Source of the DNA: a virus
Direction: 5' to 3' (one strand)
IMG/VR virus record: IMGVR_UViG_3300030328_002877
Span: 1-24,525 of that record
Length of the DNA: 24,525 bases
Shown: positions 962-21,513 of the stretch, piece by piece
Position numbering within the stretch: position 1 is the first letter of the stretch
Layout: every line of letters starts with the position of its first letter
Position numbers and translations under genes: made by a program
The notes under the pieces: generated by a model
The model's input: only the letters and a program-made list of their open reading frames with translations
What the model was told of the DNA's origin: nothing
Database searches by the model: none

Positions 962-973
962 GGCTATTTATTA

Positions 974-1017
974 ACGAAATTCGTAGTATTTCTTACAAAA
1001 TATGATATAATAGTAAT
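974..1017 (+). promoter_or_regulatory. Promoter P1 (extended -10) with dyad at the -35 region
   Basis: In the 103-bp gap before the sigma-factor gene there is a perfect extended -10, TGATATAAT (TATAAT at 1006-1011). No TTGACA-like -35 is present. GTAGTA at 983-988 lies exactly 17 bp upstream, matching the element at P2 and P3. An inverted repeat ACGAA-A-TTCGT (974-984) overlaps it and could be an operator. The start site is predicted near 1018. Confidence 0.65.
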
Positions 1018-1029
1018 ACACTGTAATAA

Positions 1030-1043
1030 ATCCCAGTAGGGAT
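1030..1043 (+). other. Small hairpin in sigma-factor leader
   Basis: ATCCC-AGTA-GGGAT forms a 5-bp stem with a 4-base loop in the predicted leader, 21 bases before the sigma gene ATG. That ATG has no Shine-Dalgarno sequence in the usual window, so the leader structure might affect translation or mRNA stability. The stem is short and could be chance. Confidence 0.35.
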
Positions 1044-1064
1044 AAAAACAATAACAAGTAAATA

Positions 1065-1607
1065 ATGCAGATTAATAACGACTTAATATTACAGTGGGAA
1101 CCTAAAATTATGAAAATGGTTGGGAATACCTATATTGCAGGTATGGACCGAGAAGACATAGCTCAAGAGCTTCGTATTGCCTTAACAAAGGCCGCTAAGA
1201 AGTATGATGAGAGTAAAGGAGCTATATTCCACACATATCTACACACTTCATTGGTAAATACTATTCGTACTCTTATTACAAAAGCCCAAAGACATCCAAA
1301 TTTTGTTAGTATTGACAATAATCCATATGACATTAATGATTCAGGATTTTATACATCAGAAATTTCAAAAGTTTTATCTAAAGAAGAGAAAGAATACGAG
1401 GAGATTGATATGGAACTACTTATTCATACAAATGATGAAAACGGGGACCCGAAACTGCAAGACAAGGAGAAAGAATTTGTAATGTACAAACTACAAGGAC
1501 TTACTATGGATGAGATTACAAAGAAACTTGGTGAGTCTTCTTATAAAGTACGTCACTCTATACGAGAGAAATTTACAGATTTACTAACAGAGACTGATGA
1601 ATTTTAA
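1065..1607 (+). CDS. Phage RNA polymerase sigma factor (sigma-70-like, regions 2 and 4)
   Basis: A 180-residue protein with the layout of a minimal sigma-70-family factor. Residues ~10-75 resemble region 2 (MDREDIAQELRIALTKAAKKY, then FHTYLHTSLVNTIRTLITKAQR), which melts and reads the -10. A linker rich in acidic residues follows. Residues ~130-173 resemble region 4, with an HTH at LTMDEITKKLGESSYKVRHSIREKF that would read the -35. It lacks region 1.1 and region 3, as ECF and many phage factors do. It would redirect host RNA polymerase to phage promoters. It lies just after promoter P1, so it may control itself. The ATG at 1065 has no clear ribosome site, which is unusual here. The stop overlaps the next gene by 11 bp. 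Family assignment is by motif reading; a divergent ECF-like factor is the main alternative. Confidence 0.76.
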   Translation: MQINNDLILQWEPKIMKMVGNTYIAGMDREDIAQELRIALTKAAKKYDESKGAIFHTYLHTSLVNTIRTLITKAQRHPNFVSIDNNPYDINDSGFYTSEISKVLSKEEKEYEEIDMELLIHTNDENGDPKLQDKEKEFVMYKLQGLTMDEITKKLGESSYKVRHSIREKFTDLLTETDEF

Positions 1608-2088
1608 TGAATTAAATGCTAGAGACATTTACGAACTATTCGGTAATTTATATAAAGAAAAACACAACAAAGAATATTCTGGAGCAGGATTTATAGGTAA
1701 TGAAATGCATTTACTTAGAAATCTAATTGATGAGCAGGGGTCAGCACCTGTAGCTGCAGCAGTTCTTAATTGCATTATAAATAATGACCATAATGTAAAT
1801 GTACCTTATTTTGTAGCAGGTATTGAGTATTATATAACCCCTCACAATCCAATTATTTATTATTCAGTTACTAGGTGGGGAGATTCAAAAATAAAAAAAC
1901 TCTGGAAAAGATTCTTAATTTTAGATGCAGTATGGTTTCCATCTGCTACCCAGAGAGCTCAAAGAAAAATTATACTTAAAGAACTAAAGGAGTGGGCCAA
2001 TGCGAAGGCGGGTAACAAGGCGAGAAAGAGGGCTAATAAGAAAACCACAAAGCCAAAAAAGGGGCGTAGTGGAGGAGCAAGAGTTTAG
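1597..2088 (+). CDS. Hypothetical protein with basic C-terminal tail, upstream of helicase
   Basis: A 163-residue protein that I cannot assign to a family. It looks alpha-helical with several aromatic patches (PYFVAGIEYYI, IYYSVTRWGDSKIKKLWKRF). The last ~28 residues are strongly basic (KARKRANKKTTKPKKGR), as in nucleic-acid-binding tails. It overlaps the sigma gene by 11 bp at its start and contains the start of the next gene in another frame. Position just before the replicative helicase makes a helicase loader or other replisome accessory role possible, but no motif supports it. Confidence 0.72.
   Translation: MNFNELNARDIYELFGNLYKEKHNKEYSGAGFIGNEMHLLRNLIDEQGSAPVAAAVLNCIINNDHNVNVPYFVAGIEYYITPHNPIIYYSVTRWGDSKIKKLWKRFLILDAVWFPSATQRAQRKIILKELKEWANAKAGNKARKRANKKTTKPKKGRSGGARV
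1986..1992 (+). promoter_or_regulatory. Ribosome binding site for the nested gene at 2000
   Basis: AAAGGAG with 7 bases to ATG 2000. This near-ideal site inside the upstream gene is the reason for choosing the 2000 start over the later GTG at 2069. Confidence 0.6.
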
Positions 2089-2260
2089 GGTAATTGCATC
2101 ATCTGCTGACCTAAAAGATTTCTGGACTGTAGGGTATTATGCAGATTTTGAAAAAGCCAAAGCAGAGATTGACAACCTTGATACGTCTGATGTAGTATAC
2201 TATATATATTCTAATAATAATAGAGTGTTATATAGCACTACAGGAGAAACAGATGGCTAG
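2000..2260 (+). CDS. Small hypothetical protein, overlapping the upstream gene by 89 bp
   Basis: An 86-residue protein of unknown family. The ATG at 2000 lies inside the preceding gene and has AAAGGAG 7 bases before it. The first ~25 residues are very basic (MRRRVTRRERGLIRK) because the shared DNA is A/G-rich. The conserved-looking part is residues 29-80 (EFRVIASSADLKDFWTVGYYADFEKAKAEI...), an alpha/beta pattern. If translation began at GTG 2069 the overlap would be only 20 bp and the product 63 residues. The stop overlaps the helicase start by 8 bp, so it is translationally coupled to replication genes. Confidence 0.65.
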   Translation: MRRRVTRRERGLIRKPQSQKRGVVEEQEFRVIASSADLKDFWTVGYYADFEKAKAEIDNLDTSDVVYYIYSNNNRVLYSTTGETDG

Positions 2261-3539
2261 TTATGATTATATTGAATCCGCTATAATCCTAAACCTTGAT
2301 AATAAAACAAAATTACGTACGTTTAAGCATACAGAAAAAGATTTTGCGGCACATGGTAAAGCATATAATTGGATTATTAAACATTTTGATAAGTATGGAG
2401 TGTTCGCAACTCCGGAAGCTATTGTCGAAAAGTTTCCTAATTTGGACATCAAGGCTAACAGCGTTAATTTTGAATATGCAGTTGAAGAATTTAAGGGCCA
2501 CGTATTACAAAGGACTTTGCGTAATGCTGTTAATAAGCAAGTAAATTTAATTAATGAAAATCCAAAAAAAGCCATTACAAACTTGATGGTGGATTTGACA
2601 GATATTGAAATAGTATATGATGAGGATGTGCAAACCTTTGATAAAGGAGATACATCTAGATTAGAGGAGTGGCGAGAGAGAACAATGAAACGAGAGATGG
2701 GTGATGGCTTGATGGGCATACCTACGAGTTTCAAGACTATAAATACCACTGGAGTGGGTTGGAATCCGGGAGAACTAATAGCAGCTTTCGCAAGACCGAC
2801 TATTGGTAAAACATGGTTATGCGTTCATGCAGCAGCTACTGCAGTAAAGGCAGGACATAGAACTCTTTTGATTTCTACAGAAATGCCCCAAACTGCTATA
2901 AATATGAGACTTGATGTGGTATTAGCAAAAATGATGGACTACAATTTCTCCCACACTGCTCTTAGACGAGGAGACCCTATAGATGAGGAACTCTATGCGA
3001 AGTACTTAAAAGAGTCTAATACAGAATCTTTACTCGTTTGTGACCATATTTCCGGTCAGATGGGTATATCTTTGGAATCAATTGCAGGATTAGTAAGAAA
3101 ACATAATCCTGAATTTGTAGTTATTGATGGGGTTTATTTGGTAGCTACAAGCGATTCAAAAAAAGCTGCTTGGGAACAATCACATGCATTGTTTTATGGA
3201 TTGAAAAACCTAGCAACTGCAACAAATACTCCAATCATGGTATCAACACAGGCTACCCGGGATGCTTCTAATATGTTTACTCCCCCAAGGGCGGACCAAG
3301 TGGCTTTTGGAGATGCTTTGATAAGGGCTGCTGACGTAGCAATAGCTATGTGTGCTGTAGCGAAAGATTCAGCGGATGCTTCATCGCTAATGCAAAAGCA
3401 GGTCGACACCAAAAGACTAGTGCAATTCCAAAAATATCGGGATGGTGAATTGCCGAGAGATACAACCTATATGGAGTGGTCAGTCAACAATGGTGAGATA
3501 CATGAAATACCCGATTACGATGGGGGAGGAGACTTTTAA
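2253..3539 (+). CDS. Replicative DNA helicase, DnaB/RecA-fold type
   Basis: A 428-residue hexameric helicase, expected to unwind the fork ahead of the polymerase. The N-terminal ~120 residues are helical (DnaB N-domain-like, a primase-contact region in relatives). The C-terminal motor begins at IPTSFKTINTTGVGWNPGELI. Walker A is ARPTIGKT (180-187), with Ala replacing the usual first Gly. The catalytic Glu is in LLISTEMPQ (E210), Walker B is EFVVIDGVY (D292), and an STQATRDA segment matches the DnaB sensor region before QVAFGDALIRAADVAIAM. The C-terminus ends in acidic DYDGGGDF. CAGGAG at 2241-2246 precedes the ATG. The primase is separate, two genes downstream, unlike the fused T7 gp4. Confidence 0.92.
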   Translation: MASYDYIESAIILNLDNKTKLRTFKHTEKDFAAHGKAYNWIIKHFDKYGVFATPEAIVEKFPNLDIKANSVNFEYAVEEFKGHVLQRTLRNAVNKQVNLINENPKKAITNLMVDLTDIEIVYDEDVQTFDKGDTSRLEEWRERTMKREMGDGLMGIPTSFKTINTTGVGWNPGELIAAFARPTIGKTWLCVHAAATAVKAGHRTLLISTEMPQTAINMRLDVVLAKMMDYNFSHTALRRGDPIDEELYAKYLKESNTESLLVCDHISGQMGISLESIAGLVRKHNPEFVVIDGVYLVATSDSKKAAWEQSHALFYGLKNLATATNTPIMVSTQATRDASNMFTPPRADQVAFGDALIRAADVAIAMCAVAKDSADASSLMQKQVDTKRLVQFQKYRDGELPRDTTYMEWSVNNGEIHEIPDYDGGGDF

Positions 3540-3553
3540 ACAGGAGGTTTAAT

Positions 3554-3748
3554 ATGGGAATTTTCGATTGGCTTGGTGGAAGTGAAGATGATAGTCATAT
3601 CATTGTAAAATCTACTAGAAGCAAAGGAGATGGACGACCAATCATTGACATTACTGTAGGAGATATCAGAAAAGGTATTGCTACAGATGAAAATGGTTAT
3701 AGAAACGAAGTTGTTCTATTTCTTAGAAAAAACAAAAAGGATAGATAA
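3554..3748 (+). CDS. Small hypothetical protein between helicase and primase
   Basis: A 64-residue protein with no family that I recognise. AGGAGG at 3542-3547 lies just before ATG 3554. The start MGIFDWLGGSED is typical of small phage proteins; the rest alternates charged and beta-prone segments and ends basic (FLRKNKKDR). The last base of its stop is the first base of the primase ATG, so the two are coupled. A replisome accessory role is possible from position only. Confidence 0.68.
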   Translation: MGIFDWLGGSEDDSHIIVKSTRSKGDGRPIIDITVGDIRKGIATDENGYRNEVVLFLRKNKKDR

Positions 3749-4623
3749 TGGTAGATTGGTACTCTATATTAACTAAATATGGGGTGGACATTCCAAATGA
3801 AGAACAGATTGTAATACATTGCCCTTTTCATGAAGATAGAAAAGAGTCTTGTGCAATCAATCTTGATAAGGGAGCTTGGATTTGTTTTGCAGGTTGTGGT
3901 CAAGGAGGTCTAAAAAGCTTTCTCCATAAGATTTCAGGCAAGTCTTGGGAAGAAATTAATCTTGAGGTTGGTAGTCAAATAGATACTAATTCTCTTGAAA
4001 TTAATCCACTTTTCTTTGGGGACGAGGAAAAAGAAGTTTCCAAAGAACTCCCTTATCAAAAACCGGAAGTAATCTTAGATGTCCCGGACGGACACTGGAT
4101 ATATAAAAGAGGATTCACCAAAGATACTATTTCAAAGTGGGATTGTAAAACTAACAATTTTCTAGATTTTATGATACCGGCTAAGAACCAATCTCAAGAG
4201 ATTATAGGTTGGATAACAAGACGAACGCAGGCAGTACCAAAGTACTTATTTTCAAAGGGTTTTTCTAAATCAAAGACTTTATTTGGTATAAACAAACTAA
4301 AAGATGTAGAGACCTTATATATAGTCGAGGGGGCCTTAGATTGTATGTGGCTCAGTCAGCAGGGGTACTCAGCTGTAGCATTACTTGGAGCCTCTTTATC
4401 TAAAAAACAGATTGAACTTTTAAGTGCATTACGAGCAACAGAATTAGTACTAGCATTAGATAATGATGAGGCGGGAAAAAAGGGAATGGAAAAAGCTACA
4501 CTTGACATGGGCAATAGATTTTTGATATCATATTTAAACATTCCAAAAAAATACAAAGACTTGCAAGAAATTACTGATTTGGATATATTACATTCAGTAC
4601 TAACAAGCAAAGTACTAATATAA
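3748..4623 (+). CDS. DNA primase (CHC2 zinc finger + Toprim)
   Basis: A 291-residue DnaG-type primase that makes RNA primers for lagging-strand synthesis. An N-terminal zinc finger is visible at C25-P-F-H28 and C46-x3-C50 (CPFHEDRKESCAIN...WICFAGCGQGG), matching the CHC2 pattern used for template recognition. The middle part ends with a Toprim fold: E194 in YIVEGALDCM and D238/D240 in LALDNDEAGKKG are the metal-binding residues. It is shorter than bacterial DnaG (~580 residues) because it lacks the helicase-binding C-domain. The stop is followed by AGGAGAT before the next gene. Confidence 0.92.
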   Translation: MVDWYSILTKYGVDIPNEEQIVIHCPFHEDRKESCAINLDKGAWICFAGCGQGGLKSFLHKISGKSWEEINLEVGSQIDTNSLEINPLFFGDEEKEVSKELPYQKPEVILDVPDGHWIYKRGFTKDTISKWDCKTNNFLDFMIPAKNQSQEIIGWITRRTQAVPKYLFSKGFSKSKTLFGINKLKDVETLYIVEGALDCMWLSQQGYSAVALLGASLSKKQIELLSALRATELVLALDNDEAGKKGMEKATLDMGNRFLISYLNIPKKYKDLQEITDLDILHSVLTSKVLI

Positions 4624-4635
4624 GGAGATAACAAC

Positions 4636-5328
4636 ATGAGTGGAATAACAAGAATACAACAAGGGCGTGAGGATTCTAAAAGACCTGACGTTGCCTTTAC
4701 ACCGGGTAAAGAGATTTGGTTCAGAGATGGCGACCAAGTATTTTTATCATCACTAGCTACTGGGGCTGACAACGATAATTTTTTAGAAGAAATTTATCTA
4801 TACACCTTTAGAGCAGGCAATAAGTTTGTAAATTTATTGAAAGACGAGAGAGTAGATACTTCTATCGTTCCTGATGATGTTAGAGCATCACACAAATTTG
4901 CAATTTGGGCATATGTTCACAACATAATGCACCAAGAGAAGAGAAACGATGACTGGGTTGAAGTCGATGGTCCGGCAGGTAAAAAAATGTTTAGAGAAGA
5001 TGTAAATGATTTTCGTATCATTGCTTTGACTTTTGGTAGAAGTGACTATATATGGAACCAATTAGTTGAGGTTTATAGTGATTGGGGAGCATTAAATAAA
5101 GGTGTTATAAGAATAAAAAGAACTGGTCAAGGAATGTACGAGACTTCTTATTCTATTACAGCTACCCCTAAAAACGATGAGATACCTGCAGAAAGACAAA
5201 GTGATATTGCAGAACTACCCCCACTACTAGATTATTTCTATGAGAGATACGGTAATTCCGCAGACGCAGCTATGGATATAGCAAAGAACGCAGCAACTTC
5301 TGATGATTCAGAACAACCTTTATTCTAA
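4636..5328 (+). CDS. Putative single-stranded DNA-binding protein
   Basis: A 230-residue protein located between primase and DNA polymerase, the usual place for a phage SSB. The C-terminus is acidic and ends in an aromatic residue (SDDSEQPLF), the tip that T7 gp2.5, T4 gp32 and bacterial SSB use to contact partners. The centre (IWAYVHNIMHQEKRNDDWVEVDG... FRIIALTFGRSDYIWNQLVEVYSDWG... GVIRIKRTGQGMYETSYSITATPK) reads as beta-rich with many aromatic residues, compatible with an OB fold. I do not see a sequence signature that settles the family. AGGAGAT at 4623-4629 precedes ATG 4636. Its 3' end overlaps the polymerase start by 26 bp. Confidence 0.58.
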   Translation: MSGITRIQQGREDSKRPDVAFTPGKEIWFRDGDQVFLSSLATGADNDNFLEEIYLYTFRAGNKFVNLLKDERVDTSIVPDDVRASHKFAIWAYVHNIMHQEKRNDDWVEVDGPAGKKMFREDVNDFRIIALTFGRSDYIWNQLVEVYSDWGALNKGVIRIKRTGQGMYETSYSITATPKNDEIPAERQSDIAELPPLLDYFYERYGNSADAAMDIAKNAATSDDSEQPLF

Positions 5329-7393
5329 AGAAGCTGCAGTAACCGAAGAAACATTTGAACAGAATGTCAATCAGCTGAGGTCGGTATTAGAGGTAGCACC
5401 GACCTTGGTTGTGGATGTTGAAACAAACGGATTAAACTCTTTTGGCACCAACCAAATATGTGGGATTGGTGTCGGAGAACCTAAAAAAGAAGGCCTTACT
5501 CAGTATTACCCCTTTAGACACCACGATGGTAATAATTTATCTAGTGAGTCCTTACAGCAACTAATATCTCTTTTAAACCAATCGGTAAAATCTTACATAG
5601 GTTATAACTTAAAGTTTGATTTGCACTTTTTGGAAAAAGAGGGACTATCAGTTTTAGACAAAAAGCTTATAGATGTTATAGTTATGGTTCGATTGATAGA
5701 ACATTCTGATACCAAAGAATTGGGTCTTTCGGCTACAGGTAAGCGTAATTATGGGCAAGAGGCTATACAGTATGATGATGATACTAAAAAGGTCCTAAAA
5801 TCTAATAAAGGGTGGTTTAGAGATTTTTCAAAGGCACCAGCAGATATATTAGGTGAGTATTGTCAAGAAGACGTAAGACTTACGAGTAGAATTTATAACG
5901 ATTACTTAAAAAAGATAGAAGATAGTAGACAAAACGATATCTTTACTATGGAATGTGAATTAACTAAAGTTCTTTATGCCATGGAAAGAAGAGGTATTTC
6001 GGTAGACAAACACTATGCTTTAGGAGTTGAAAAGCTAATTACTAGTAGATTGGCTGAGGTTGAGGACGAGATACTGAAAATATCTGTGCGTAAAAGGTGG
6101 AATCATGATATTCCAATGTCGTCTAAAAAACATGATGAAGACGAGTTCAATATATCAAGTCCTAAGCAGATAGGTGAGGTCTTTAATTCTATGGGGATTG
6201 AGTCGCCTGTAAAAACATCTAAGGGTCAAGATTCTTGGAATGAGGCTGCCCTAATAAATATCAATCATAGAATGGCGGGGTTAATAAGACAGTATCGAAC
6301 CCTAGAGAAGCTGAAATCTACATATATATTACCATATACAGAAATAGATACTATGCACACTTCATTTTGTAATTGGGGTACAGCAACTGGGAGACTATCT
6401 AGTAGAGAGCCTAACTTACAAAACATTCCTCGTAACCACTTTAAATTGGTAGAGAAACAACTAACAGAAGAAGATAAGATTGATATGAGAGGTAAAATCT
6501 CGGCTATGGTTGCCCAAAAGGGTATTACCATAGATAATGAGTTATCTGATGATGTATTAGCAACATGGTCTTTTATTGGTGATGAATCATATGATGAATT
6601 AGATAAACACCAGATAGCTATACGTAGATTGTTTATCCCACGTCAAGGATACTCTTTAGTTGGGTTTGACTATAGTCAGATGGAAGTTCGGGTATTTATG
6701 TCATATTTTAGAAACCCTGAGATTGATGCCATTCTAAATAAAACAGATGTAGACTTCCACAGTGAAGCGGCAAAACTTGCTTTCAAAATAGATGAGTCAC
6801 ATAATAGATTCAAGGAATATCGTCAGTATGCTAAGGCTATTACATTTGGTACTATTTATGGTATTGGTAATAAGAAATTAGCCCAACAGTTGAATACTTC
6901 TCCAAGAGAAGCCGGGAAGTTTAAAAGGCAATACTTTGAGGGTATGCGGGGTTCAAAAGATTTCTTCGATGCAGTTGTTGCAAAGGTTGAGAGAGTGGGT
7001 AAAATCCGTAATAAGTATGGTAGGGTTTACCAAATTAACCCACAATTTGCTTACAAAGGAGTAAACTATCTCGTCCAAGGAACCAGTGCTGACCTTTTGA
7101 GTGAACGTATGCTTGAGGTTGCTAAATTTTTAGATGATAAAAAAAGCAATATTTTATTACAGGTTCATGATGAAATTATATGTGAGATACATGATTCCGA
7201 ATTAGAGACTGTACCCTTTACAATTAGGGAGTTACTTGAGACAAATACTTTGGACATACCACTAAAAGTTGATATGGAGTTGTGTACACCATCTTGGGCG
7301 AATAAGAAGGAACTAAAAGTTTTAACTATGGATGACCTTGTAGATTGGGATGATGCTCCAACGACAGACTCCAACGGGGTAGTTTGGTCTTGA
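5303..7393 (+). CDS. polA: DNA polymerase, family A with 3'-5' exonuclease
   Basis: A 696-residue replicative polymerase. The N-terminal DnaQ-like proofreading domain starts with VVDVETNG (D38, E40); later exo motifs include IGYNLKFDLHFL and a YCQEDVRLTSRIY segment. Polymerase motif A is FDYSQMEVR (D456), motif B is RQYAKAITFGTIYG with Phe515 at the position of E. coli Pol I Phe762, and motif C is LQVHDEI (H622-D623-E624). There is no 5'-3' exonuclease domain. About 63 residues separate NLQNIP (371-376) from IRRLFIP (440-446), whereas E. coli Pol I has about 8; the extra part is acidic and mostly helical. The ATG has no strong ribosome site and is probably coupled to the upstream gene. Confidence 0.95.
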   Translation: MIQNNLYSKEAAVTEETFEQNVNQLRSVLEVAPTLVVDVETNGLNSFGTNQICGIGVGEPKKEGLTQYYPFRHHDGNNLSSESLQQLISLLNQSVKSYIGYNLKFDLHFLEKEGLSVLDKKLIDVIVMVRLIEHSDTKELGLSATGKRNYGQEAIQYDDDTKKVLKSNKGWFRDFSKAPADILGEYCQEDVRLTSRIYNDYLKKIEDSRQNDIFTMECELTKVLYAMERRGISVDKHYALGVEKLITSRLAEVEDEILKISVRKRWNHDIPMSSKKHDEDEFNISSPKQIGEVFNSMGIESPVKTSKGQDSWNEAALININHRMAGLIRQYRTLEKLKSTYILPYTEIDTMHTSFCNWGTATGRLSSREPNLQNIPRNHFKLVEKQLTEEDKIDMRGKISAMVAQKGITIDNELSDDVLATWSFIGDESYDELDKHQIAIRRLFIPRQGYSLVGFDYSQMEVRVFMSYFRNPEIDAILNKTDVDFHSEAAKLAFKIDESHNRFKEYRQYAKAITFGTIYGIGNKKLAQQLNTSPREAGKFKRQYFEGMRGSKDFFDAVVAKVERVGKIRNKYGRVYQINPQFAYKGVNYLVQGTSADLLSERMLEVAKFLDDKKSNILLQVHDEIICEIHDSELETVPFTIRELLETNTLDIPLKVDMELCTPSWANKKELKVLTMDDLVDWDDAPTTDSNGVVWS

Positions 7394-7418
7394 AAATAAA
7401 CATAAAAACTGATAAGAT
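7390..7418 (+). promoter_or_regulatory. Possible weak host-type promoter
   Basis: TTGAAA (7390-7395), a 17-bp spacer and TAAGAT (7413-7418) match the standard sigma-70 pattern at 5/6 and 4/6. The predicted start near 7425 is almost at ATG 7428, so a transcript from it would be leaderless or nearly so. It could be chance in AT-rich sequence. Confidence 0.25.
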
Positions 7419-7427
7419 ATAAACACT

Positions 7428-7700
7428 ATGGGTAAGTACAACGAAGACAAAATAATAAAAGAAATAAGTGAGTATGTGAATAACACATATGACCAACACT
7501 ACAGTGAGGGTGAAGTCCAAACATTAGACTTTATAGAAGCCTGTGGTGATGCTAAAGCATTTTGCAGGAGCAACATACTAAAGTATGCTTCAAGATATGA
7601 TAAAAAAGGAACCCCGAGAAAAGATATATTAAAAATAATACACTATGCAATGTTACTGTTGCATTTTAGTGACAAAGGAGAAGATGATGCCAAAAGTTAG
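7428..7700 (+). CDS. DUF3310 family protein
   Basis: A 90-residue protein that fits the DUF3310 pattern common in phages: HY near the start of the domain (QHYSEGEV), then the FIEACGDAKAFCRSNILKYASRYDKKG block with NxxKYxxRxxxKG, then a helix (DILKIIHYAMLLLHF). Members are sometimes annotated as nucleotide-kinase-like or SaV-like, but the function is not established. It follows the polymerase after a 34-bp gap. No Shine-Dalgarno is visible before the ATG. Confidence 0.82.
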   Translation: MGKYNEDKIIKEISEYVNNTYDQHYSEGEVQTLDFIEACGDAKAFCRSNILKYASRYDKKGTPRKDILKIIHYAMLLLHFSDKGEDDAKS

Positions 7701-7905
7701 TGCACATTTAGGATTTACATTTAGAGTAGGTCCATTAGAACAAAACCAATATGGGAGAGTAGACTTATCTGTTGACCAGATAGATACTGATTTACCAATA
7801 GAACCGCAGTTAGAAGAATCTAAAAAAGTAGCCGATGTTGTGTGGGACTTTATAAAAGGAAAAGTAGATACACAAATCGAGGATATGTTAGATGACTCCA
7901 AATAA
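7687..7905 (+). CDS. Small hypothetical acidic protein
   Basis: A 72-residue product beginning MPKVSAHLGFTFRVG. AAAGGAG at 7674-7680 lies 6 bases before ATG 7687; the adjacent ATG 7684 is only 3 bases away and an upstream in-frame start at 7645 would lie far inside the previous gene, so 7687 is preferred. It shows a beta-rich first half (FTFRVGPLEQNQYGRVDLSVDQID) and a helical, acidic second half (VADVVWDFIKGKVDTQIEDML). I do not recognise the family. It overlaps the gene before by 14 bp and the gene after by 14 bp. Confidence 0.66.
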   Translation: MPKVSAHLGFTFRVGPLEQNQYGRVDLSVDQIDTDLPIEPQLEESKKVADVVWDFIKGKVDTQIEDMLDDSK

Positions 7906-10043: not shown

Positions 10044-10044
10044 T

Positions 10045-11000: not shown

Positions 11001-11001
11001 T

Positions 11002-11517: not shown

Positions 11518-11522
11518 TAATT

Positions 11523-12023: not shown

Positions 12024-12025
12024 AA

Positions 12026-13702: not shown

Positions 13703-13739
13703 GAAATAAAAAATAAATTAGAAGGAGGACCTTAGTTCC

Positions 13740-15689
13740 ATGACAACCGATATAACACAACCCGAAGCATTAGAAGAAGTAAATTTATCAGACCAAGCCA
13801 AAGTGATATTGGAACATAGGTATTTATTGAAAAATAAGGATTCAGAAATAGTTGAATCCCCTACAGAATTATTTAGACGTGTTGCTAAAGCAGTAGCATC
13901 AATTGATTCTGATTATCTCCATCTACCGGTTGAGGCTTCCTTAACAGAAAAAGACTTTTTTTCAGTAATGAAGCACCTAGAGTTTGTCCCTAACTCACCA
14001 ACACTAATGAATGCTGGAACAGAGCAAGGAACTTTATCTGCATGCTTTGTGCTACCTTTAGAAGATAGCATGGAAGGAATAATGAAAGCTTCACACGATG
14101 CGGCAATGGTACAAAAATTCGGAGGAGGAACAGGATTTTCCCTTTCAAAGCTTCGACCTCGAGGAGCAAAGATTCAGTCTACACATGGTATTGCCTGTGG
14201 TCCAATAGAAGTACTTAAAACATTGTCTAGAGTGTCATCTATGATAACTCAAGGTGGTAAAAGAGATGGGGCTAATATGGCTGTAATGTCTATCTATCAC
14301 CCAGATATTCTAGAGTTTATCAAATGTAAATCTACAGAAGGGGACATTCACAATTTCAACATATCTGTAGGAGTAGATTCTAATTTTATGCAACTCGCTA
14401 AGAATGACATGAAGTATAATCTAATTAATCCACATGATAATTCTATTGCTGGTAGCTTATCAGCACGAGACGTATTGAATAAGATTGTTGAGGGGGCATG
14501 GAAAAACGGTGAACCCGGAATGATATTTCTCGACCAAGTAAATAAAGACAATCATGTAAAAGAACAATATGGTGACATGATTGCAACAAACCCATGTGGT
14601 GAACAACCTTTATTAGGAAACGAGTCTTGTAATTTAGGGTCTATAAACTTAGCTACTTTTTACAAGAAGTCTGAGGGGCCCACTCATGGCTGGAAAGAAA
14701 AAATAGATTGGGACAGACTAGACCATGTTATAAGAACATCTGTTCATTTTCTAGATAATGTAATAGATGCTAATAAATATGCTACTCCAGAAATTGAACA
14801 AATGACTAAAGCTACACGAAAGATAGGTTTAGGCGTTATGGGCTTTGCTGATTTACTAATACAAATGCAAATCCCCTATGGGTCAAAATTAGCTCGAGAT
14901 GTGGGCGGGGGTTTGATGAAGAAGGTTCGTGAGATAGCTGACGAAAAATCACAAGAGTTAGCAAATAAGCGAGGAGTTTTCCCTGCTTGGGATAATAGCA
15001 CTTATAATGTTCCTTTTAACAAAGCAGCAAGTCAGATGTTTAGAAATCATTGCAGACTAACAGTTGCTCCAACAGGAACAATATCAATGATAGCTGACAC
15101 ATCTAGTGGTATTGAACCTACATTTGCATTAGCTTGGAAAAAACAAAACATATTAGAAGGAAAAACATTAAACTATGTGAACAAGTATTTTGAAGCAGAC
15201 GCTAAAAAACATGGGTTCTATTCAGAAGATTTGATGGATTACTTAGCAGAGGGTGGTTCTTTAGCCACGGCTCCGCAGGTACCGGATTGGGCTAAGGCAG
15301 TATATGCTACTGCTCCCGAGATTTCTCCGGAAGACCATGTTCTTATGCAGTCAGCTTTTCAAGCACACTGTGATTCCGGTATATCTAAAACAATAAACTT
15401 TGATAATTCTGCTACAATAGAAGATGTAGAAAAGGCTTATATGTTAGCATGGCAAGAAGGATGTAAGGGTATAACTGTCTACAGAGCTGGTAGTAGGGAC
15501 AAAGAAGTTCTTGTAAAAGGTAATTCTGAAAATAAATCTGAGCAGTTACAACTTGATGGTTTTGAACTAGAAGAACAGGTAATATCCGAAGCTGAAAACT
15601 ACGATTGTTGTGACAATCCAAACATAGTATTTGAGTCTGGATGTGAGACTTGTAAGTCTTGTGGGTGGAGTGCTTGCAAGATTGCGTAA
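13740..15689 (+). CDS. nrdJ: Class II (adenosylcobalamin-dependent) ribonucleotide reductase
   Basis: A 649-residue reductase that makes dNTP precursors from ribonucleotides for phage DNA synthesis. Typical blocks are FVPNSPTLMNAG, GGGTGFSLSKLRPRGA, TQGGKRDGANMAVM, the catalytic NPCGEQPLLGNESCNLGSINLA (N284, C286, E288), IGLGVMGFADLL and APTGTISMIADTSSGIEP. The C-terminus carries C635-x2-C638-x2-C641-x4-C646 (CETCKSCGWSACKIA), the redox-active tail of NrdJ-type enzymes. No small radical subunit gene follows and there is no ATP-cone domain, which supports class II. AAGGAGG lies at 13722-13728, 11 bases before ATG. The location between terminase and head genes, away from the replication block, is unusual. 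Confidence 0.95.
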   Translation: MTTDITQPEALEEVNLSDQAKVILEHRYLLKNKDSEIVESPTELFRRVAKAVASIDSDYLHLPVEASLTEKDFFSVMKHLEFVPNSPTLMNAGTEQGTLSACFVLPLEDSMEGIMKASHDAAMVQKFGGGTGFSLSKLRPRGAKIQSTHGIACGPIEVLKTLSRVSSMITQGGKRDGANMAVMSIYHPDILEFIKCKSTEGDIHNFNISVGVDSNFMQLAKNDMKYNLINPHDNSIAGSLSARDVLNKIVEGAWKNGEPGMIFLDQVNKDNHVKEQYGDMIATNPCGEQPLLGNESCNLGSINLATFYKKSEGPTHGWKEKIDWDRLDHVIRTSVHFLDNVIDANKYATPEIEQMTKATRKIGLGVMGFADLLIQMQIPYGSKLARDVGGGLMKKVREIADEKSQELANKRGVFPAWDNSTYNVPFNKAASQMFRNHCRLTVAPTGTISMIADTSSGIEPTFALAWKKQNILEGKTLNYVNKYFEADAKKHGFYSEDLMDYLAEGGSLATAPQVPDWAKAVYATAPEISPEDHVLMQSAFQAHCDSGISKTINFDNSATIEDVEKAYMLAWQEGCKGITVYRAGSRDKEVLVKGNSENKSEQLQLDGFELEEQVISEAENYDCCDNPNIVFESGCETCKSCGWSACKIA

Positions 15690-15720
15690 GTAAATACGAA
15701 AAATCTAGTATAATATAAAT
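15686..15720 (+). promoter_or_regulatory. Promoter P2, upstream of the head operon
   Basis: TATAAT at 15709-15714, with GTAAGT at 15686-15691 exactly 17 bp upstream, matching P1 and P3 in both -10 and spacing. The upstream element overlaps the reductase stop codon. The start site is predicted near 15721. The leader contains AGGAG just before ATG 15744. This promoter would drive the portal operon. Confidence 0.62.
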
Positions 15721-15743
15721 AGAGAAGATTTTAGGAGAGAAAA

Positions 15744-16193
15744 ATGGTAAACGGAGAAATAGGGAATATGTTATCTGACTCCGGTCAGCAGTATATAGCA
15801 ACTAAGGATGATAAGGGGACATGGAGAATATTAGATACTTGGCACGCTGATTTAAAAATGCTGAGTGCTGAGGATGATATTCCTGATGATAGCCCCGCAG
15901 TAGCTACTCTTAGTGAGGGACAATTTATAGCCCTAATAAAAGAAGCCGGTAGTCTGGGAGTACTTGAAAATGCTACTTTTGGTACTGGTGAGGCTGAACT
16001 TGAAGCCATAATATTAGATAGAGACCAAGAAATCCAAACCTTGAATGAGGAAATATTAAAGTTGAAGGAACAAAAATCTGAAGTTATTCGAGATGTTGAA
16101 CATTCAGAAGACTACCAACTAAAAGAGAAAGCGATGGACAATATATTAAAGTTAGTATCCATGCAGGATATGACTAAACTAAGCAGGGATTAA
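15744..16193 (+). CDS. Hypothetical protein before portal
   Basis: A 149-residue acidic protein with no family recognised. The first half (QQYIATKDDKGTWRILDTWHADLKML) looks like a small beta unit; residues ~88-120 (LEAIILDRDQEIQTLNEEILKLKEQKSEVI) form a coiled coil, followed by another helix. AGGAG lies just upstream. It is the first gene after promoter P2 and ends 2 bases before the portal, so a head-assembly or portal-associated role is reasonable but inferred. Confidence 0.7.
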   Translation: MVNGEIGNMLSDSGQQYIATKDDKGTWRILDTWHADLKMLSAEDDIPDDSPAVATLSEGQFIALIKEAGSLGVLENATFGTGEAELEAIILDRDQEIQTLNEEILKLKEQKSEVIRDVEHSEDYQLKEKAMDNILKLVSMQDMTKLSRD

Positions 16194-16195
16194 TA

Positions 16196-18169
16196 ATGAA
16201 ATTATCTGAATATCTACCACAAGTCCCCCAAATGCAACAGACAATGGCTGATTTGAATAAACAAATTAGTTTATTAGATGTTATGAAATCTCAGGGAGAT
16301 ACTGGGGCGGCTCCTACAGTTGGTCTTGACCACGTGGTGAATACATGGGTGCGTCATCAAATGGCGTACAGACAACAGTTAGTACAAGACCTTCAAACTA
16401 TAACCTTATCGGTTGAAGAAATCCGGGGTCCTCTAACACATATTACAGGGGAAGTATTTAGAAGAGGTATAGAAATTATACCTAATAAAGAAAACCCCGA
16501 CATTGACCAACGTAAGAGACTGACTAAATGGTTACGAGACTGTAACGTATTTGACCAGAGTATGGAAGAGGTATTTAGACAATTTCATTTTGATGTGAAC
16601 TCTCTAGACGATGCCTTTTTGTATTTAGCTAAAGAATATAAAGATGTGGGTGGTGGAGAGGTTAGAACTAAACTTCTAGAGATTAGAAGACTAAACCCAG
16701 CACTAGTTGAATTTGATTTAGACCAAGCGGGGCTACCTAAAAATTCTCATTTCCTTTGCCCTATTCATAGGGAAGTAATTCAAGAAGCCGCAGGGACATG
16801 TGAGAAAGAAGATTGTGATGTAAAACTACAACCAGCAATGTATAAATATTACCATAGAAGTCATCACATGTACTTTACCGATTCCGAAATTATTCACTTA
16901 TCTAAGTTTGCCCCATCAGAAACATATGGTTGGTCTCCAATACTAACTATTTTTGAGAAGGCTTTAACTTTAGTAGGTATGGATAAAAACCTTTACAGAT
17001 ATTTTTACGAAAGAAAAATGCCTGCAAGTATGTTAATGGTAACTACTGATGACCCTGAGAGTCTACGAAAAGAACGAGAACACATTGCGGCTCAAACAAG
17101 AATGGACCCTAACTATATACCTATGGTAGCAGTATCTGCTAGAAACCAAAGAGGTAGGGTAGACATGGTAAGACTATTCCACACTCTAAATGAAATGGAT
17201 TACTTACCTGTTAGAGATGAAATCAGGGAACGTGTAGCAGCTATGTGGGGAGTTACTCCAGCATGGCAGGGAGCTCCTGAAGCTTTTGGTGGGATGTCTA
17301 CTCAGACACAACAACTAGTAGTTATGAGTAGAGTAGTTGAAGGAGACCAAAGATTATTCCACGAGAAAATTTTCCCGCAACTATTAGAAGCTTTTGGGAT
17401 AACTGACTATGACTTAAAATTACCCCAGCCTGAAGAGAAGGCTGAGAATACTAGGTTGAGTTTCGCACAACAAAAAATACAGATAGTAAATCAATTTGCT
17501 CAATTAGGGTTTGATATAAAACTAAAAGAACAGGATGTTGATTTATATGAGGCGGAGTTTGTTGTGAGTGGTGAGCCTGTACCAACTGCTAAAATGCAGG
17601 GTGAACAACAGTTGATGGGAATTGAACAACAAAAGAAGCAAATAGAAATGGAAGAACAGCAACAAGCTATGGCAGAACAACAGGCTGAAGAGCAAGCTGC
17701 TATGGAACAATTGCAAGCCGAGGAAGGTGGTGAAGAAGCCCAAGCCCCATCAGACATGGTGGGTATCCAAGCTATGCAAAAGACATATGTTCCACCATCA
17801 CAAAGGAAATTTAAAGGGCGGACAGGTGGGGTTACCCCTGACTGGTCGGACAAACACCCTGATGAAGAGAGAGATATTGATGAGTATGCTGAAGCTAGAG
17901 CTAATAAAAACGAATTAACCCTGTCAAAGACGTGGGTACAGTCGTTGAATGAAAAAGGTTTTGCTGCTCCGATAATAAAACAAGTATCTCCAGACTTGAG
18001 TCAGATGTGGTTTTCGGAAAATAACGTCGAGTATATAGCAAACCTTTCGGCTACAGGCGTAACAACTATTGAAAAAGCAACTTTCGGAGACCCGACAAGA
18101 TTCAGTAGAAATAAACAGGAAGGACCAAAGGCAACAGAACCAACCGAATTTGATATAGAAGATGAATAA
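16196..18169 (+). CDS. Portal protein with inserted Cys/His cluster
   Basis: A 657-residue portal, the dodecameric gate for DNA at the capsid vertex. Portal-like features are the ITGEVFRRGIEIIP start of the core, an SPILTIFEKALTLVGMDKNLYRYFYERKMPASMLMV stem/wing segment and IRERVAAMWGVTPAWQGAPEAFGGMSTQTQQLVVMSRVVEGDQRLFHEKIFPQLLEAFG. A putative zinc cluster C188-x2-H191-x10-C202-x4-C207 lies between core strands, which is not typical for portals. Residues ~460-515 are rich in Gln/Glu and Met, a likely coiled coil. The last ~110 residues form an extra domain ending acidic (FDIEDE). There is no strong ribosome site; it is coupled to the gene before. Confidence 0.88.
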   Translation: MKLSEYLPQVPQMQQTMADLNKQISLLDVMKSQGDTGAAPTVGLDHVVNTWVRHQMAYRQQLVQDLQTITLSVEEIRGPLTHITGEVFRRGIEIIPNKENPDIDQRKRLTKWLRDCNVFDQSMEEVFRQFHFDVNSLDDAFLYLAKEYKDVGGGEVRTKLLEIRRLNPALVEFDLDQAGLPKNSHFLCPIHREVIQEAAGTCEKEDCDVKLQPAMYKYYHRSHHMYFTDSEIIHLSKFAPSETYGWSPILTIFEKALTLVGMDKNLYRYFYERKMPASMLMVTTDDPESLRKEREHIAAQTRMDPNYIPMVAVSARNQRGRVDMVRLFHTLNEMDYLPVRDEIRERVAAMWGVTPAWQGAPEAFGGMSTQTQQLVVMSRVVEGDQRLFHEKIFPQLLEAFGITDYDLKLPQPEEKAENTRLSFAQQKIQIVNQFAQLGFDIKLKEQDVDLYEAEFVVSGEPVPTAKMQGEQQLMGIEQQKKQIEMEEQQQAMAEQQAEEQAAMEQLQAEEGGEEAQAPSDMVGIQAMQKTYVPPSQRKFKGRTGGVTPDWSDKHPDEERDIDEYAEARANKNELTLSKTWVQSLNEKGFAAPIIKQVSPDLSQMWFSENNVEYIANLSATGVTTIEKATFGDPTRFSRNKQEGPKATEPTEFDIEDE

Positions 18170-19142
18170 GTCTTGGATTACAAACCCCAGAGGGCAGAAC
18201 GACTCATATAAAAAAGCCGCTAAAAAAGATTTGCAGAAGCAAAAATCTGATGAAATAAAACACGACTTATTGTTACCACGAGGTGAGACTAAGGTTTTGC
18301 GAGCCACCGATATGGAAGATGGTCCAAGTTATGACAGAGGTTTGTTTGTAAAATTATTAGATGATGGTGGGTACGAAGTCGCTTATTGGTATAATACATT
18401 AAATGAAATATATCCTATTGAAATATTAGTGGATGGTGAATCAGTGAAAAAAGATGCAAAAAAAGTAACATTTAAATTTCATCCTGAATTAGAAAAACTA
18501 CTGAAGGAAAACGGTGGTGGTGGCGGAGCCGCTACTTCGGGGTCGTTTGGTGGTGGTGCAGGGACGGTATTTACGTCTCAAGACTCAGGAGTGTTTACTC
18601 CTAGCTACGGTGGTAGGTCAGAACGTAAAAAAAGATGGGATAAAAATCGTAAAGGCAAAAAACGAAGTGGTGTTGAAAGACTTGGGCTGTTTATAACTGA
18701 CCAGTCTCCAGAAAGAAAAATGCAGAAAGAACTTACTTCATCAACAGTTGACCTAATAAAGTGGGTTCAAGACGAACTTAAAAAAGATGATGTAAAGTTT
18801 CGACAGCAAACATCATCTACTTCTATGAATGACCAGACTAAACAAACTGATGGACTTAGGAATCCTGTGTTATATGATGCAGAGCCAGATAAAGAAGCAG
18901 ATGTGGCTCAGAAAGATGTAGAAGATAGAATTAGAAGCTTAGATGATTCAGAAAACATAAAGAATAATAAGGCTGATGAAAAGGGGGATGCAGGGCAAGT
19001 AGCTCCTGCAGGGCTAAGTGTTCAATTATCATACGGTTCGGGGACAGAAACAGGACCAACAGTTGCAGGGGGTTATAGAGACCTAGACGCTGGTAAAATA
19101 GATGCTGAAGAAGAAGACGATAAAGATAGCCCCTTTGTTTAA
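18162..19142 (+). CDS. Gly-rich linker protein, probable virion structural
   Basis: A 326-residue protein. Residues 1-115 form an N-terminal domain (LLLPRGETKVLRATD ... VAYWYNTLNEIYPIEILVDG). Residues 117-151 are a Gly/Ser/Thr linker with the pattern GGGAGTVFTSQDSGVFTPSYGG, which I recall from other phage structural proteins. A very basic stretch follows (RSERKKRWDKNRKGKKRSG, 152-170), then a helical part and an acidic C-terminus (DAEEEDDKDSPFV). The start overlaps the portal stop by 8 bp. It could be a prohead or neck component or a minor head protein that contacts DNA through the basic stretch. The family is unknown to me. Confidence 0.72.
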   Translation: MNKSWITNPRGQNDSYKKAAKKDLQKQKSDEIKHDLLLPRGETKVLRATDMEDGPSYDRGLFVKLLDDGGYEVAYWYNTLNEIYPIEILVDGESVKKDAKKVTFKFHPELEKLLKENGGGGGAATSGSFGGGAGTVFTSQDSGVFTPSYGGRSERKKRWDKNRKGKKRSGVERLGLFITDQSPERKMQKELTSSTVDLIKWVQDELKKDDVKFRQQTSSTSMNDQTKQTDGLRNPVLYDAEPDKEADVAQKDVEDRIRSLDDSENIKNNKADEKGDAGQVAPAGLSVQLSYGSGTETGPTVAGGYRDLDAGKIDAEEEDDKDSPFV

Positions 19143-19445
19143 ATGAAATTATATGATAGAATGTGTACTAAGTGTCAAGGACATATGTACATAAACGAAG
19201 ATAAAGATTTACAATGTCTTACTTGCGGTAAGATATTGGTAGTAAAGGTAAGGAGGAACTATGATTCCAGAACAGGCAAAATCAGAGATAATAAGAAGAA
19301 GGGCTCTAGGAGCTACGTGGACAGCGATAGTAAACTGGATGAACGAGGAGTACGGTACCGAAACCCATCGAACAACCATTCAACGTTGGCACGACAGCGA
19401 GATAGAGGGAGTTCAGGTAGAGCAGGTCTTACATCCGGAAGATAG
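19143..19445 (+). CDS. Zinc-ribbon protein, 185-bp overlap with next gene
   Basis: A 100-residue protein. The start is a zinc ribbon, C8-x2-C11 ... C25-x2-C28 (MCTKCQGHMYINEDKDLQCLTCGK). The remaining two thirds are basic and low-complexity (Arg, Lys, Ser, Asp) and lie in DNA that also codes, in another frame, for the HTH of the following phosphoesterase. ATG 19143 comes immediately after the previous TAA with no ribosome site, so re-initiation is likely. The zinc ribbon is credible; whether the long tail is functional or only read-through of an overlapping frame is uncertain. A transcription or DNA-binding role is possible. Confidence 0.62.
   Translation: MKLYDRMCTKCQGHMYINEDKDLQCLTCGKILVVKVRRNYDSRTGKIRDNKKKGSRSYVDSDSKLDERGVRYRNPSNNHSTLARQRDRGSSGRAGLTSGR
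19250..19256 (+). promoter_or_regulatory. Ribosome binding site for the metallophosphoesterase
   Basis: AAGGAGG, 4 bases before ATG 19261 and inside the zinc-ribbon gene. It fixes the phosphoesterase start and therefore the dual-coding overlap. Confidence 0.6.
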
Positions 19446-20592
19446 TCTAGCCCAAAGGATAAAACTTGATAAAAAGGTTGCTACCCAAAAGAGTGAAGCA
19501 TCTTTTTATAAAAAGCTTTATCAAGCGGCTTTAAAAGATGATACTAAACAAGACCTTATTATAGAGACTATACAACAACACACCAAAGCTTTCCCATCAG
19601 TACCCCTAAAATATATCGAAAAAACCGATAAGACCCCATTTGGACATCAAGCACAAGTTATGGTTACCCCTTTATCTGATACACATGTAGGTGAGCAGGT
19701 GTATAAAGACCAGATGAGAGGATTGAACGAATACAACTTGGAGGTCTTTAATAAACGGATGTATGGTTGGGCTAACCAAATACTAAAACACGCATCTTAT
19801 AGAAGACAGATAGCCCCAGTAGATGAACTAATTATACCTATGTTAGGTGACATGATTAGTGGAGACATACACGAAGAGTTGGCTAGGTCTAATATGGCTA
19901 ACTGTATGGACCAAATGATTAGAGGAGCTAGTATTATCGGACAAGCTTTGATGTACTTAGCCCCACATTTCACAAAAATCAAAGTCCCATGTGTAGTTGG
20001 TAATCATGGTAGGATGACTAGAAAGCCTCCTATGAAAGACAAATTCATGGATTGGGATTATATGTTATACCAATGGATTGCTTCTTTCTGTAAGAACCAA
20101 GAAAATATAGAGTTCCATATTCCTAAAAGCTTTATGACTACATTCAAAGTGCATGATAAGGTAGTTCTTATTACTCACGGAGATTGTATATCGGGGGCTG
20201 GAAGTAGTGGAGCAATACTAAATTCAATAACTAAACTACGAAGTGTATTCCAATTTAGGAAGAATCTACAGCGTGAGATAGAAGGTGCTCTTGATGAAGA
20301 CTTAGAGCAAGAGTTTGATAGTGTAATGATTGGGCATTTTCACAGAATAGATGAATTAGATATAGGTACAGGAGAGCTACATATATGTGGAACCATGAAA
20401 GGTCCAGATGAGTTTGCTCTTCAACGATTACAAGCGGCTACTAAACCTAAACAAATAGTTACTTATTGGCACCCAAAGTATGGTTATGTGGGTAGAGATG
20501 TTATTTATTTGAACCGCTATGATACTAGTAAGCGTAAGTTTATAGATAAAATCCCTGAGAAATGGACGGATTTAGGGGGAATGTCAGTATAA
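19261..20592 (+). CDS. HTH-metallophosphoesterase (calcineurin-like) fusion
   Basis: A 443-residue protein in the head block. Residues 1-48 form an HTH (KSEIIRRRALGATWTAIVNWMNEEYGTETHRTTIQRWHDSEI). Residues ~130-400 are a calcineurin-type phosphoesterase with every metal motif: SDTHVG (D140, H142), LGDMISGD (D197), GNHGR (N248, H249), THGD (H306) and GHFH (H359, H361). SbcD/Mre11-like nucleases share this fold, and phage relatives are often annotated as DNA exonuclease or phosphoesterase. The attached HTH suggests that the substrate is DNA. Why it sits between portal and connector genes is unclear. Confidence 0.88.
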   Translation: MIPEQAKSEIIRRRALGATWTAIVNWMNEEYGTETHRTTIQRWHDSEIEGVQVEQVLHPEDSLAQRIKLDKKVATQKSEASFYKKLYQAALKDDTKQDLIIETIQQHTKAFPSVPLKYIEKTDKTPFGHQAQVMVTPLSDTHVGEQVYKDQMRGLNEYNLEVFNKRMYGWANQILKHASYRRQIAPVDELIIPMLGDMISGDIHEELARSNMANCMDQMIRGASIIGQALMYLAPHFTKIKVPCVVGNHGRMTRKPPMKDKFMDWDYMLYQWIASFCKNQENIEFHIPKSFMTTFKVHDKVVLITHGDCISGAGSSGAILNSITKLRSVFQFRKNLQREIEGALDEDLEQEFDSVMIGHFHRIDELDIGTGELHICGTMKGPDEFALQRLQAATKPKQIVTYWHPKYGYVGRDVIYLNRYDTSKRKFIDKIPEKWTDLGGMSV

Positions 20593-20601
20593 TAATATAT
20601 T

Positions 20602-21123
20602 ATGCCGAAAAATCGAAAAACCCGTGCTAAAGAATTAAGACAAGAGCTAATTAAACTCGTAGGCAATGGTGTGTTTGATAAAGCACAGGAGTTAGTTCCA
20701 GAGGGGGGCACAGGGGGGTTGAAGAACTCAGGTTCAATCTCATTCGATAGTAAGGGGTTTTATATTAGATATTCAGCTCCATATGCTAAACAAGTGCATG
20801 ATGGGGATGATGGTGAACTTCCAGAGTACATTCAAAGACCTAAAGACCACGACAGGAATTATTCGTCTACAATCAAAGAGGGTAAATATAAAGGGCAAAC
20901 ATCAAGACCTGTAAGTTACCCCAATGGTAGGAATTTTGGGAATAAACGAGTTGTACAGTGGGAGGGGGCACCTAGAGGTTGGTACACAACAGACTCCCCT
21001 AGAGAAGGGAACCCATGGCTAGATAAGGCGTGGGAATCTTATACAAGTTCCTTATCAAGAAGAGAACAAACAGTCCTAACTAAGTTAGGTATAAAATTAA
21101 AAAATAAGTTTCAGGATAGCTAG
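20602..21123 (+). CDS. HK97 gp10-like head-tail/tail-completion protein
   Basis: A 173-residue protein. Residues ~35-70 (PEGGTGGLKNSGSISFDSKGFYIRYSAPYAKQVHDGDDG) match the 'vdTGrLrnS ... pYa-yvhyGt' pattern of the HK97 gp10 family, and NPWLDKAWESY near the end fits its 'npfl-pA' closing helix. Such proteins form the head-tail connection or end the tail tube. The middle insertion (RPKDHDRNYSS..GNKRVVQWEGAPRGWYT) is larger than usual. ATG 20602 has no ribosome site; a TATAAT lies at 20588-20593, so a leaderless start is possible. Confidence 0.68.
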   Translation: MPKNRKTRAKELRQELIKLVGNGVFDKAQELVPEGGTGGLKNSGSISFDSKGFYIRYSAPYAKQVHDGDDGELPEYIQRPKDHDRNYSSTIKEGKYKGQTSRPVSYPNGRNFGNKRVVQWEGAPRGWYTTDSPREGNPWLDKAWESYTSSLSRREQTVLTKLGIKLKNKFQDS

Positions 21124-21135
21124 GAGGAGAGCAAA

Positions 21136-21345
21136 ATGGTAGACGTAAGTAAAATAACCCCCGCACAAGAATATATAATAGCCCGACATTCTAAAATGGT
21201 CGGCAAAATTTTAGATTTAGTAGAAGCATCACTCCCAGAAGGGAATCAATGTGATAAACTCAAAAAACTTTTACAAGTTCCTTTATATGATTTTCGTAAT
21301 GAAATGATTCAATTAGATACAAAGGGTCTTCCAGAAACAGAATAA
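21136..21345 (+). CDS. Small helical hypothetical protein
   Basis: A 69-residue, all-helical protein (TPAQEYIIARHSKMVGKILDLVEASLPEGNQCDKLKKLLQVPLYDFRNEM). AGGAGG at 21122-21127 precedes it. Proteins of this type are common in phage head operons but have no agreed function. It is the last gene before the P3 gap. Confidence 0.68.
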   Translation: MVDVSKITPAQEYIIARHSKMVGKILDLVEASLPEGNQCDKLKKLLQVPLYDFRNEMIQLDTKGLPETE

Positions 21346-21363
21346 TTAGTTTTATATTATAAC

Positions 21364-21410
21364 ACTAACTAGTTTTAGTAGGATTTTCTGTTTTACGTAG
21401 TATAATATAC
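21364..21410 (+). promoter_or_regulatory. Promoter P3, upstream of scaffold and capsid
   Basis: TATAAT at 21401-21406 with GTAGGA at 21378-21383, again with a 17-bp spacer. ACTAA-N6-TTAGT (21364-21379) is an inverted repeat that overlaps the upstream element. The predicted start site is near 21413. P3 lies in a 168-bp gap, the longest non-coding stretch of the window, and would raise capsid expression. Confidence 0.65.
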
Positions 21411-21435
21411 TAACGTTAAATATAACGTTATATTT
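21411..21435 (+). promoter_or_regulatory. Tandem AACGTT palindromes, candidate operator
   Basis: TAACGTTA (21411-21418) is followed by the 18-bp perfect palindrome AAATATAACGTTATATTT (21418-21435). The two AACGTT cores are 12 bp apart. They lie exactly over the predicted P3 start site, where a dimeric repressor or activator would act; in RNA they could also form a hairpin. Which protein binds is unknown. Confidence 0.5.
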
Positions 21436-21441
21436 TATGCT

Positions 21442-21470
21442 AAAGGGTCGGATGGCTAAGACCAACCTTT
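21442..21470 (+). other. Hairpin in the scaffold-capsid leader
   Basis: AAAG-GGTC (21442-21449), a 10-base loop, GACC (21460-21463), a 3-base bulge and CTTT (21467-21470) can pair. It is a modest stem followed by T/A-rich sequence, about 43 bases before ATG 21514. Possible roles are mRNA stability or attenuation; it is weak evidence alone. Confidence 0.3.
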
Positions 21471-21513
21471 TATGTCAATGAAATAAAAACAACAGACATA
21501 GGAGGTAAATACT

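Follow-up and report, generated by a model that had tools for sequence, protein, structure and literature searches.

Putative late promoters and a structured scaffold/capsid leader RNA in a group of uncultured marine phages

Introduction

Which promoters does a phage with its own sigma factor use for its late genes, and is there a further layer of control at its scaffold and capsid genes? This question is raised by the virus record IMGVR_UViG_3300030328_002877, of which a stretch of 24,525 nt (the window) was analysed at full length. It encodes a sigma-like protein and carries three TATAAT-bearing promoters, P1, P2 and P3, located before the sigma gene, the portal block and the scaffold/capsid genes, respectively. 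An initial annotation had proposed that the three promoters share the element GTARNN-N17-TATAAT, and that the phage sigma factor acts through it on its own gene as well as on the late head genes. We compared the window with about 300 loci of related marine phages. Judged by sequence conservation, the late promoter class of this large phage group is a −10-type element, TAGTATAATA, without a −35; P2, P3 and a site at 20588 are members of it, P1 is not. The most unusual part of the locus is a structured leader RNA at P3 without a match to a known family.

Relatives were collected through the capsid protein, for which a search of IMG/VR yielded 385 relatives, 80 of them retained as loci, and through the sigma factor, for which 11 close loci were found and an alignment-based search yielded 377 relatives, likewise with 80 retained. 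The longer records, 14 in number, were read whole. Coordinates of the features are compiled in Table 1.

Results and Discussion

The window contains 28 copies of TATAAT against 34 expected, so the hexamer by itself shows no enrichment there. Across 15 related records, comprising about 600 kb, its density reaches 3.7 per kb in gaps versus 0.65 per kb in genes, a nearly sixfold difference, and the two letters in front of it separate both settings further: AG precedes TATAAT at 73 of 156 gap sites (47 %) versus 29 of 370 genic sites (8 %; odds ratio 10, p=5e-23), whereas the opposite strand of the same records gave no significant difference. The AG effect was repeated in 160 other loci with 113/221 gap sites (51 %) versus 34/559 genic sites (6 %, p=2e-43), a replication that is not fully independent, as these loci stem from related phages as well. 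The top enriched 8-mers in the gaps of the 15 records are TAGTATAA (64-fold) and AGTATAAT (36-fold), and an alignment of 40 non-redundant AG promoters outside the scaffold group retains the conserved letters T-A-G-TATAAT-A and no −35 columns, an absence to which the box upstream of P3 is the exception. A stop-codon artefact was also considered as the source of the TAG and rejected, the result staying intact after leaving out sites beside the ends of open reading frames (ORFs).

P2 and P3 retain the AG in nearly all of their distinct orthologues (Table 1). The fourth candidate, at 20588, escaped the initial annotation through its overlap with the 3′ end of the preceding ORF; its AGTATAAT at 20586–20593 recurs before the orthologous gene in 10 of 14 other records. 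Among the genes found behind AG promoters are the opener of the portal block, the scaffold/capsid pair and one whose product weakly matches a minor tail protein; the majority of the remaining ones lack an annotation and were called late by their position. The transcripts from late promoters of four relatives (G001, G003, G005 and G012) seem to carry a small hairpin at their 5′ end, beginning a few nt past the inferred start, for example GATAG-AAAAA-CTATC.

The promoter of the sigma gene is of another type. All nine distinct orthologues of P1 carry TGA before TATAAT, reading TGATATAAT, and AG is present in none of them. As P1 lies outside the late class, the proposed autoregulation of the sigma gene finds no support, and since several clades lack a TATAAT directly before this gene, self-activation is not a conserved trait either. 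Longer relatives have TTGACA-N16-18-TATAAT promoters in their early regions, and in an 81.6-kb relative nine of ten TTGAC-type promoters lie inside the 20-kb early region and eight of eleven TAGTATAAT sites outside of it. Inverted repeats that resemble an operator, such as CGTA..TACG or CCGT..ACGG, were also noted in the −35/spacer region in front of the sigma gene, both in the window (983–1005) and in L241, L299, L300 and L101. The protein encoded at 569–961, immediately 5′ of P1 and sigma, combines a zf-FCS zinc finger with a weak sigma70 region-4 match; its gene precedes the sigma gene in several relatives too, so that it is a possible regulator.

The ORFs and the sigma-like protein of the initial annotation were confirmed, region 2 scoring above the Pfam cut-off (Table 1). 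Region 4 remains below it (Sigma70_r4_2, E=0.0026), and the predicted structure has C-terminal helices at residues 133–177. Searched as a profile against the PDB, the protein matches E. coli sigma-E across both domains and most of its length (E=5e-6), and in relatives with identities down to 43–44 % region 2 and a C-terminal helix-turn-helix are still recognisable. A highly conserved region 2 is present in 13 of 19 long records. The six negative ones seem too short, a judgement made from gene order, in which sigma lies some 21 kb on the 5′ side of the capsid gene, rather than computed singly. The joint presence of sigma and the late class in records long enough to reach the locus is thereby supported, and from this co-occurrence and the logic of the arrangement the phage sigma probably reads TAGTATAAT.

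Between P3 and the scaffold gene, the core GUCGGA(GG)UGGCUNAGACCA or a close variant of it is found in 72 loci including the window; L048, one more locus with a scaffold start, begins too near the gene to include it. A 20-mer taken from the core is matched exactly by 104 viral-contig stretches, and 96 of 97 newly fetched core loci have scaffold or capsid downstream, the single other one ending at the contig edge. A covariance model of the leader RNA detects exactly one copy in each of the 15 long records with nothing further up to E=1, one copy in each of six additional records and none in ten further sigma-bearing records, most of which probably do not reach the capsid region. The core pattern has no match in a genome collection of 84,980 species, and the Rfam 15 families gave no covariance-model match at E≤1 in the window.

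The whole leader folds with z=−5. Its central element, the P1 helix (a label unrelated to promoter P1), has a covariation score of 0.531 versus 0.234±0.022 in shuffled alignments, and six of its seven pairs have changed on both sides, with 46 such cells versus 13.7±2.8 after shuffling. RNAalifold recovers the helix unaided, and its G-U pairs point to a leader acting as an RNA rather than a DNA element. The possibility that the hairpin is an intrinsic terminator was discarded, the U-rich stretch being the hairpin's own strand and missing in some relatives; a local GUC/GAC pairing within the core is invariant and therefore uninformative.

The 3′ strand of the P1 helix can pair alternatively with the Shine-Dalgarno (SD) region of the scaffold gene, the two helices being mutually exclusive. 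The median value for an unpaired SD is 0.18 in the free leader and 0.63 with the P1 helix forced, a release that is partly circular because the strands overlap. From its sequence, the P3 leader looks like a candidate translational switch of riboswitch-like kind. We predict that a ligand, either a metabolite or an assembly protein, would bind the core GUCGGA(GG)UGGCUNAGACCAAC, stabilise the hairpin and free the ribosome-binding site (RBS) of scaffold/capsid, which would define a new class of phage regulatory RNA; the chances of this prediction appear evenly balanced to us. A different wiring of the leader is seen in the lineage of L071 (9066–9166), L076 (3772–3882) and L080 (6932–7045), where the core AGAGUCG can pair with CGACUCU (UGACUCU in L080) beside the SD.

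Our overall model, which we hold with a probability of roughly 60 %, comprises host sigma70 on the early genes, the phage sigma on the late class and a structured leader at P3. Host RNA polymerase with sigma70 would transcribe the early genes from TTGACA-N16-18-TATAAT and the sigma gene from TGATATAAT at P1, whereupon the core enzyme of the host, guided by the small ECF-like phage sigma, would be directed to the TAGTATAATA elements in front of virion genes, those for portal and scaffold/capsid among them. The extra box near −29 at P3 would presumably serve an activator or sigma region 4, and the leader may form a second control layer, in which the conserved hairpin competes with the helix hiding the scaffold SD in response to a putative trigger. 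Comparison of the related loci documents the distinct promoter classes, the conservation of sigma, the covariation of the hairpin and the helix that competes with it. Several points weigh against this model. TATAAT equals the ideal −10 of host sigma70 and could make the late sites readable by host polymerase; the AG class has exceptions, namely a few early-region sites and six of 50 with a TTGACA-like −35; the counts across related records are non-independent, with non-redundant subsets giving the same pattern; and the AlphaFold model of the sigma factor is moderate (pLDDT 71, pTM 0.40, low TM-scores to sigma factors generally), so that a residue-level reading of the promoter is not possible.

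In the model of the initial annotation, sigma region 4 reads GTARNN at the −35 of P1, P2 and P3 and sigma activates its own gene. The three sites at 983, 15686 and 21378 are indeed present, all on the plus strand and with no further match in the window, where 0.24 are expected in shuffles; GTAG is also conserved at P1 in close relatives and in about half of the P3s. The pattern was drawn up after its three sites had been seen, and shuffling of the three upstream sequences gave an equally good common hexamer in 1 % of the trials at spacing 17 and in 3 % at spacings 15–19, so that GTARNN is at most suggestive within the window. The comparison of distinct orthologues rules it out as a shared element, GTAR being kept at the exact position 17 bp upstream in 5/9 P1s, 23/48 P3s and only 3/13 P2s; the hexamer at P2 shares its bases with the stop codon that ends the ribonucleotide reductase (RNR) gene. 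GTARNN is furthermore absent from other late promoters, the −10 context of P1 differs, and conservation of a −35-like box is limited to P3 and, as a separate case, to the P1s of close relatives. Canonical sigma70 promoters were not reported by a promoter scan at the three gaps, which had been described as the three largest, an error given that 23708–23782 (75 bp) exceeds 15690–15743 (54 bp). We regard this model as very improbable; of the phage-specific regulon it proposed, a separate class of late promoters and the accompanying phage sigma gene stand, while the proposed element and the membership of P1 fell.

A reading that shares the late class with our model would have the host sigma70 holoenzyme recognise TAGTATAAT through TATAAT, aided by a phage activator or co-factor in the manner of T4 MotA and AsiA, with the phage sigma employed elsewhere. 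The match of TATAAT to the host −10 consensus and the MotA-box-like position of the P3 box speak for it, but the late class has neither TTGACA nor the TGn extended −10 of the phage's own early and sigma promoters, the P3 box is missing from most late-class members, and the phages have retained the sigma gene, which makes us consider it rather unlikely. At the leader, an explanation without a switch takes the hairpin for a protein operator, an mRNA-stability element or a ribosome-standby element and the anti-SD pairing for a by-product of an AT-rich leader and AGGAGG. The weaker column covariation of the anti-SD helix and the lineages without clear SD sequestration (L058, L059, L063, L079 and L011) are in line with it. 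Against it, anti-SD duplexes formed by each leader's own sequence average −10.9 kcal/mol versus −8.3±0.33 kcal/mol for permuted ones, none of 5000 permutations being as strong, and the P1 helix strand overlaps the anti-SD strand across lineages; we see this explanation as a possible, somewhat doubtful one.

Among known systems, phiEco32 and 7-11 use a phage sigma and a short promoter motif (TAATGTATA in phiEco32, core TGATGT in 7-11) before structural genes, with early genes and the first sigma transcribed from sigma70 or host-type promoters (PMC4331800). The phages studied here resemble them in their sigma, in a motif before structural genes and in host-type early promoters, whereas their motif TAGTATAATA retains the host −10 hexamer. 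The nearest annotated-phage matches to the sigma are 25–34 % identical and none is of phiEco32 type; sigma-dependent promoters upstream of the sigma gene, as known from 7-11, were not seen directly before it here. By analogy with phiEco32, 7-11 and T4, host polymerase first and phage sigma later would be the simplest scheme. T4 late promoters read TATAAATA and depend on gp55, gp33 and gp45 (PMC1524935, PMC6024815). The late class described here would share with them a −10 element, the absence of a −35 and a small phage sigma as the presumed reader, but differs in its consensus TAGTATAATA and in the sigma4-like region of that sigma. As in T4 middle promoters with their MotA box (PMC6024815), a conserved box stands near −29 in front of TATAAT at P3, although with the sequence TAGGATTTTT and at one promoter only.

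Leader structures governing RBS access, for which the P3 leader is a candidate, are represented in T4 by the operators of gp32 and gp43 and the SD-sequestering leaders of genes e, soc and 49 (PMC3014915). Unlike these, the P3 leader has its own invariant core, the scaffold/capsid target pair and no Rfam counterpart. In phage P22, autoregulation by the scaffolding protein places the scaffold gene under post-transcriptional control; the likeness seen here is confined to the target. A literature search in open papers gave no description of these promoters or this RNA, which is weak evidence of absence.

The gene set of the phage comprises a DnaB-like helicase, primase, DNA polymerase, UvsX-like recombinase, terminase, RNR, portal and SU10-type capsid. 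The probable scaffold product has no Pfam or PHROG match, and the capsid protein has no relatives in the genome collection mentioned above. Its named relatives in the phage collection are only haloarchaeal viruses and a Methanofastidiosa virus (22–31 % identity), in contrast to promoters, sigma and SD sequences, which look bacterial. For the RNR (13740–15686), the best named matches, with 36–41 % identity, come from a Moorella phage, from a Microcystis phage (nrdZ, B12-dependent) and from haloarchaeal viruses, the last being class II enzymes. Taken over capsid and RNR, matches to haloarchaeal, Methanofastidiosa and bacterial viruses at 22–41 % identity do not settle the host. A strong terminator-like hairpin, GCGGGGGGGCTTCGGTCCCCCTGC, with an only moderately T-rich tail is located 3′ of the capsid gene at 23725–23748.

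Table 1. Promoters, RNA elements and genes discussed in the text, with positions in the window.
Feature	Position	Strand	Evidence or remark
P1 promoter of the sigma gene, GTAGTA (983–988) and TGATATAAT (1003–1011)	983–1011	+	host-type extended −10
Small hairpin in sigma leader, ATCCC-AGTA-GGGAT	1030–1043	+	conserved by eye in close relatives; fold z only −1.6
Phage sigma factor, 180 aa, ECF-like (sigma2 and sigma4)	1065–1607	+	Pfam Sigma70_r2, E=1.9e-10, above cut-off
RNR stop codon TAA	15687–15689	+	within P2 hexamer GTAAGT (15686–15691)
P2, late-class promoter before portal block, TAGTATAAT	15706–15714	+	AG kept in 13/13 distinct orthologues
Fourth candidate, late-class site before gene at 20602, CAGTATAAT	20585–20593	+	overlaps end of ORF 19261–20592
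P3 upstream box, TAGGATTTTC (consensus TAGGATTTTT), centred near −29	21379–21388	+	conserved columns −21 to −14 in 51 non-redundant P3s
P3, late-class promoter of scaffold/capsid, TAGTATAAT	21398–21406	+	AG in 46/48 distinct orthologues
5′ hairpin of P3 mRNA, TAACGTTA...TAACGTTA	21411–21430	+	fold; moderate covariation
P1 helix of leader RNA, invariant core GUCGGAUGGCUAAGACCAAC	21442–21471	+	covariation, RNAalifold, covariance model
Anti-SD strand, ACCUUUUAUGUC	21465–21476	+	common to 3′ strand of P1 helix hairpin
SD region, GACAUAGGAGGU	21495–21506	+	contains Shine-Dalgarno AGGAGG (21500–21505)
Probable scaffold gene	21514–22344	+	acidic, directly 5′ of capsid gene; position and composition
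Major capsid protein, SU10 type	22373–23707	+	Pfam SU10_MCP, 2.4e-12

Conclusion

The promoter classes offer a testable code for a widespread group of uncultured marine phages, in which early promoters, assigned to host sigma70, can be told apart from late ones carrying TAGTATAATA; with both programmes separable, genome sequences could reveal the timing of infection. The leader RNA would represent a conserved cis-regulatory control of scaffold/capsid translation that is testable in an E. coli reporter without the native host. Should a ligand indeed act on it, virion assembly would be tied to a late-infection signal, downstream of a late promoter probably served by the phage sigma.

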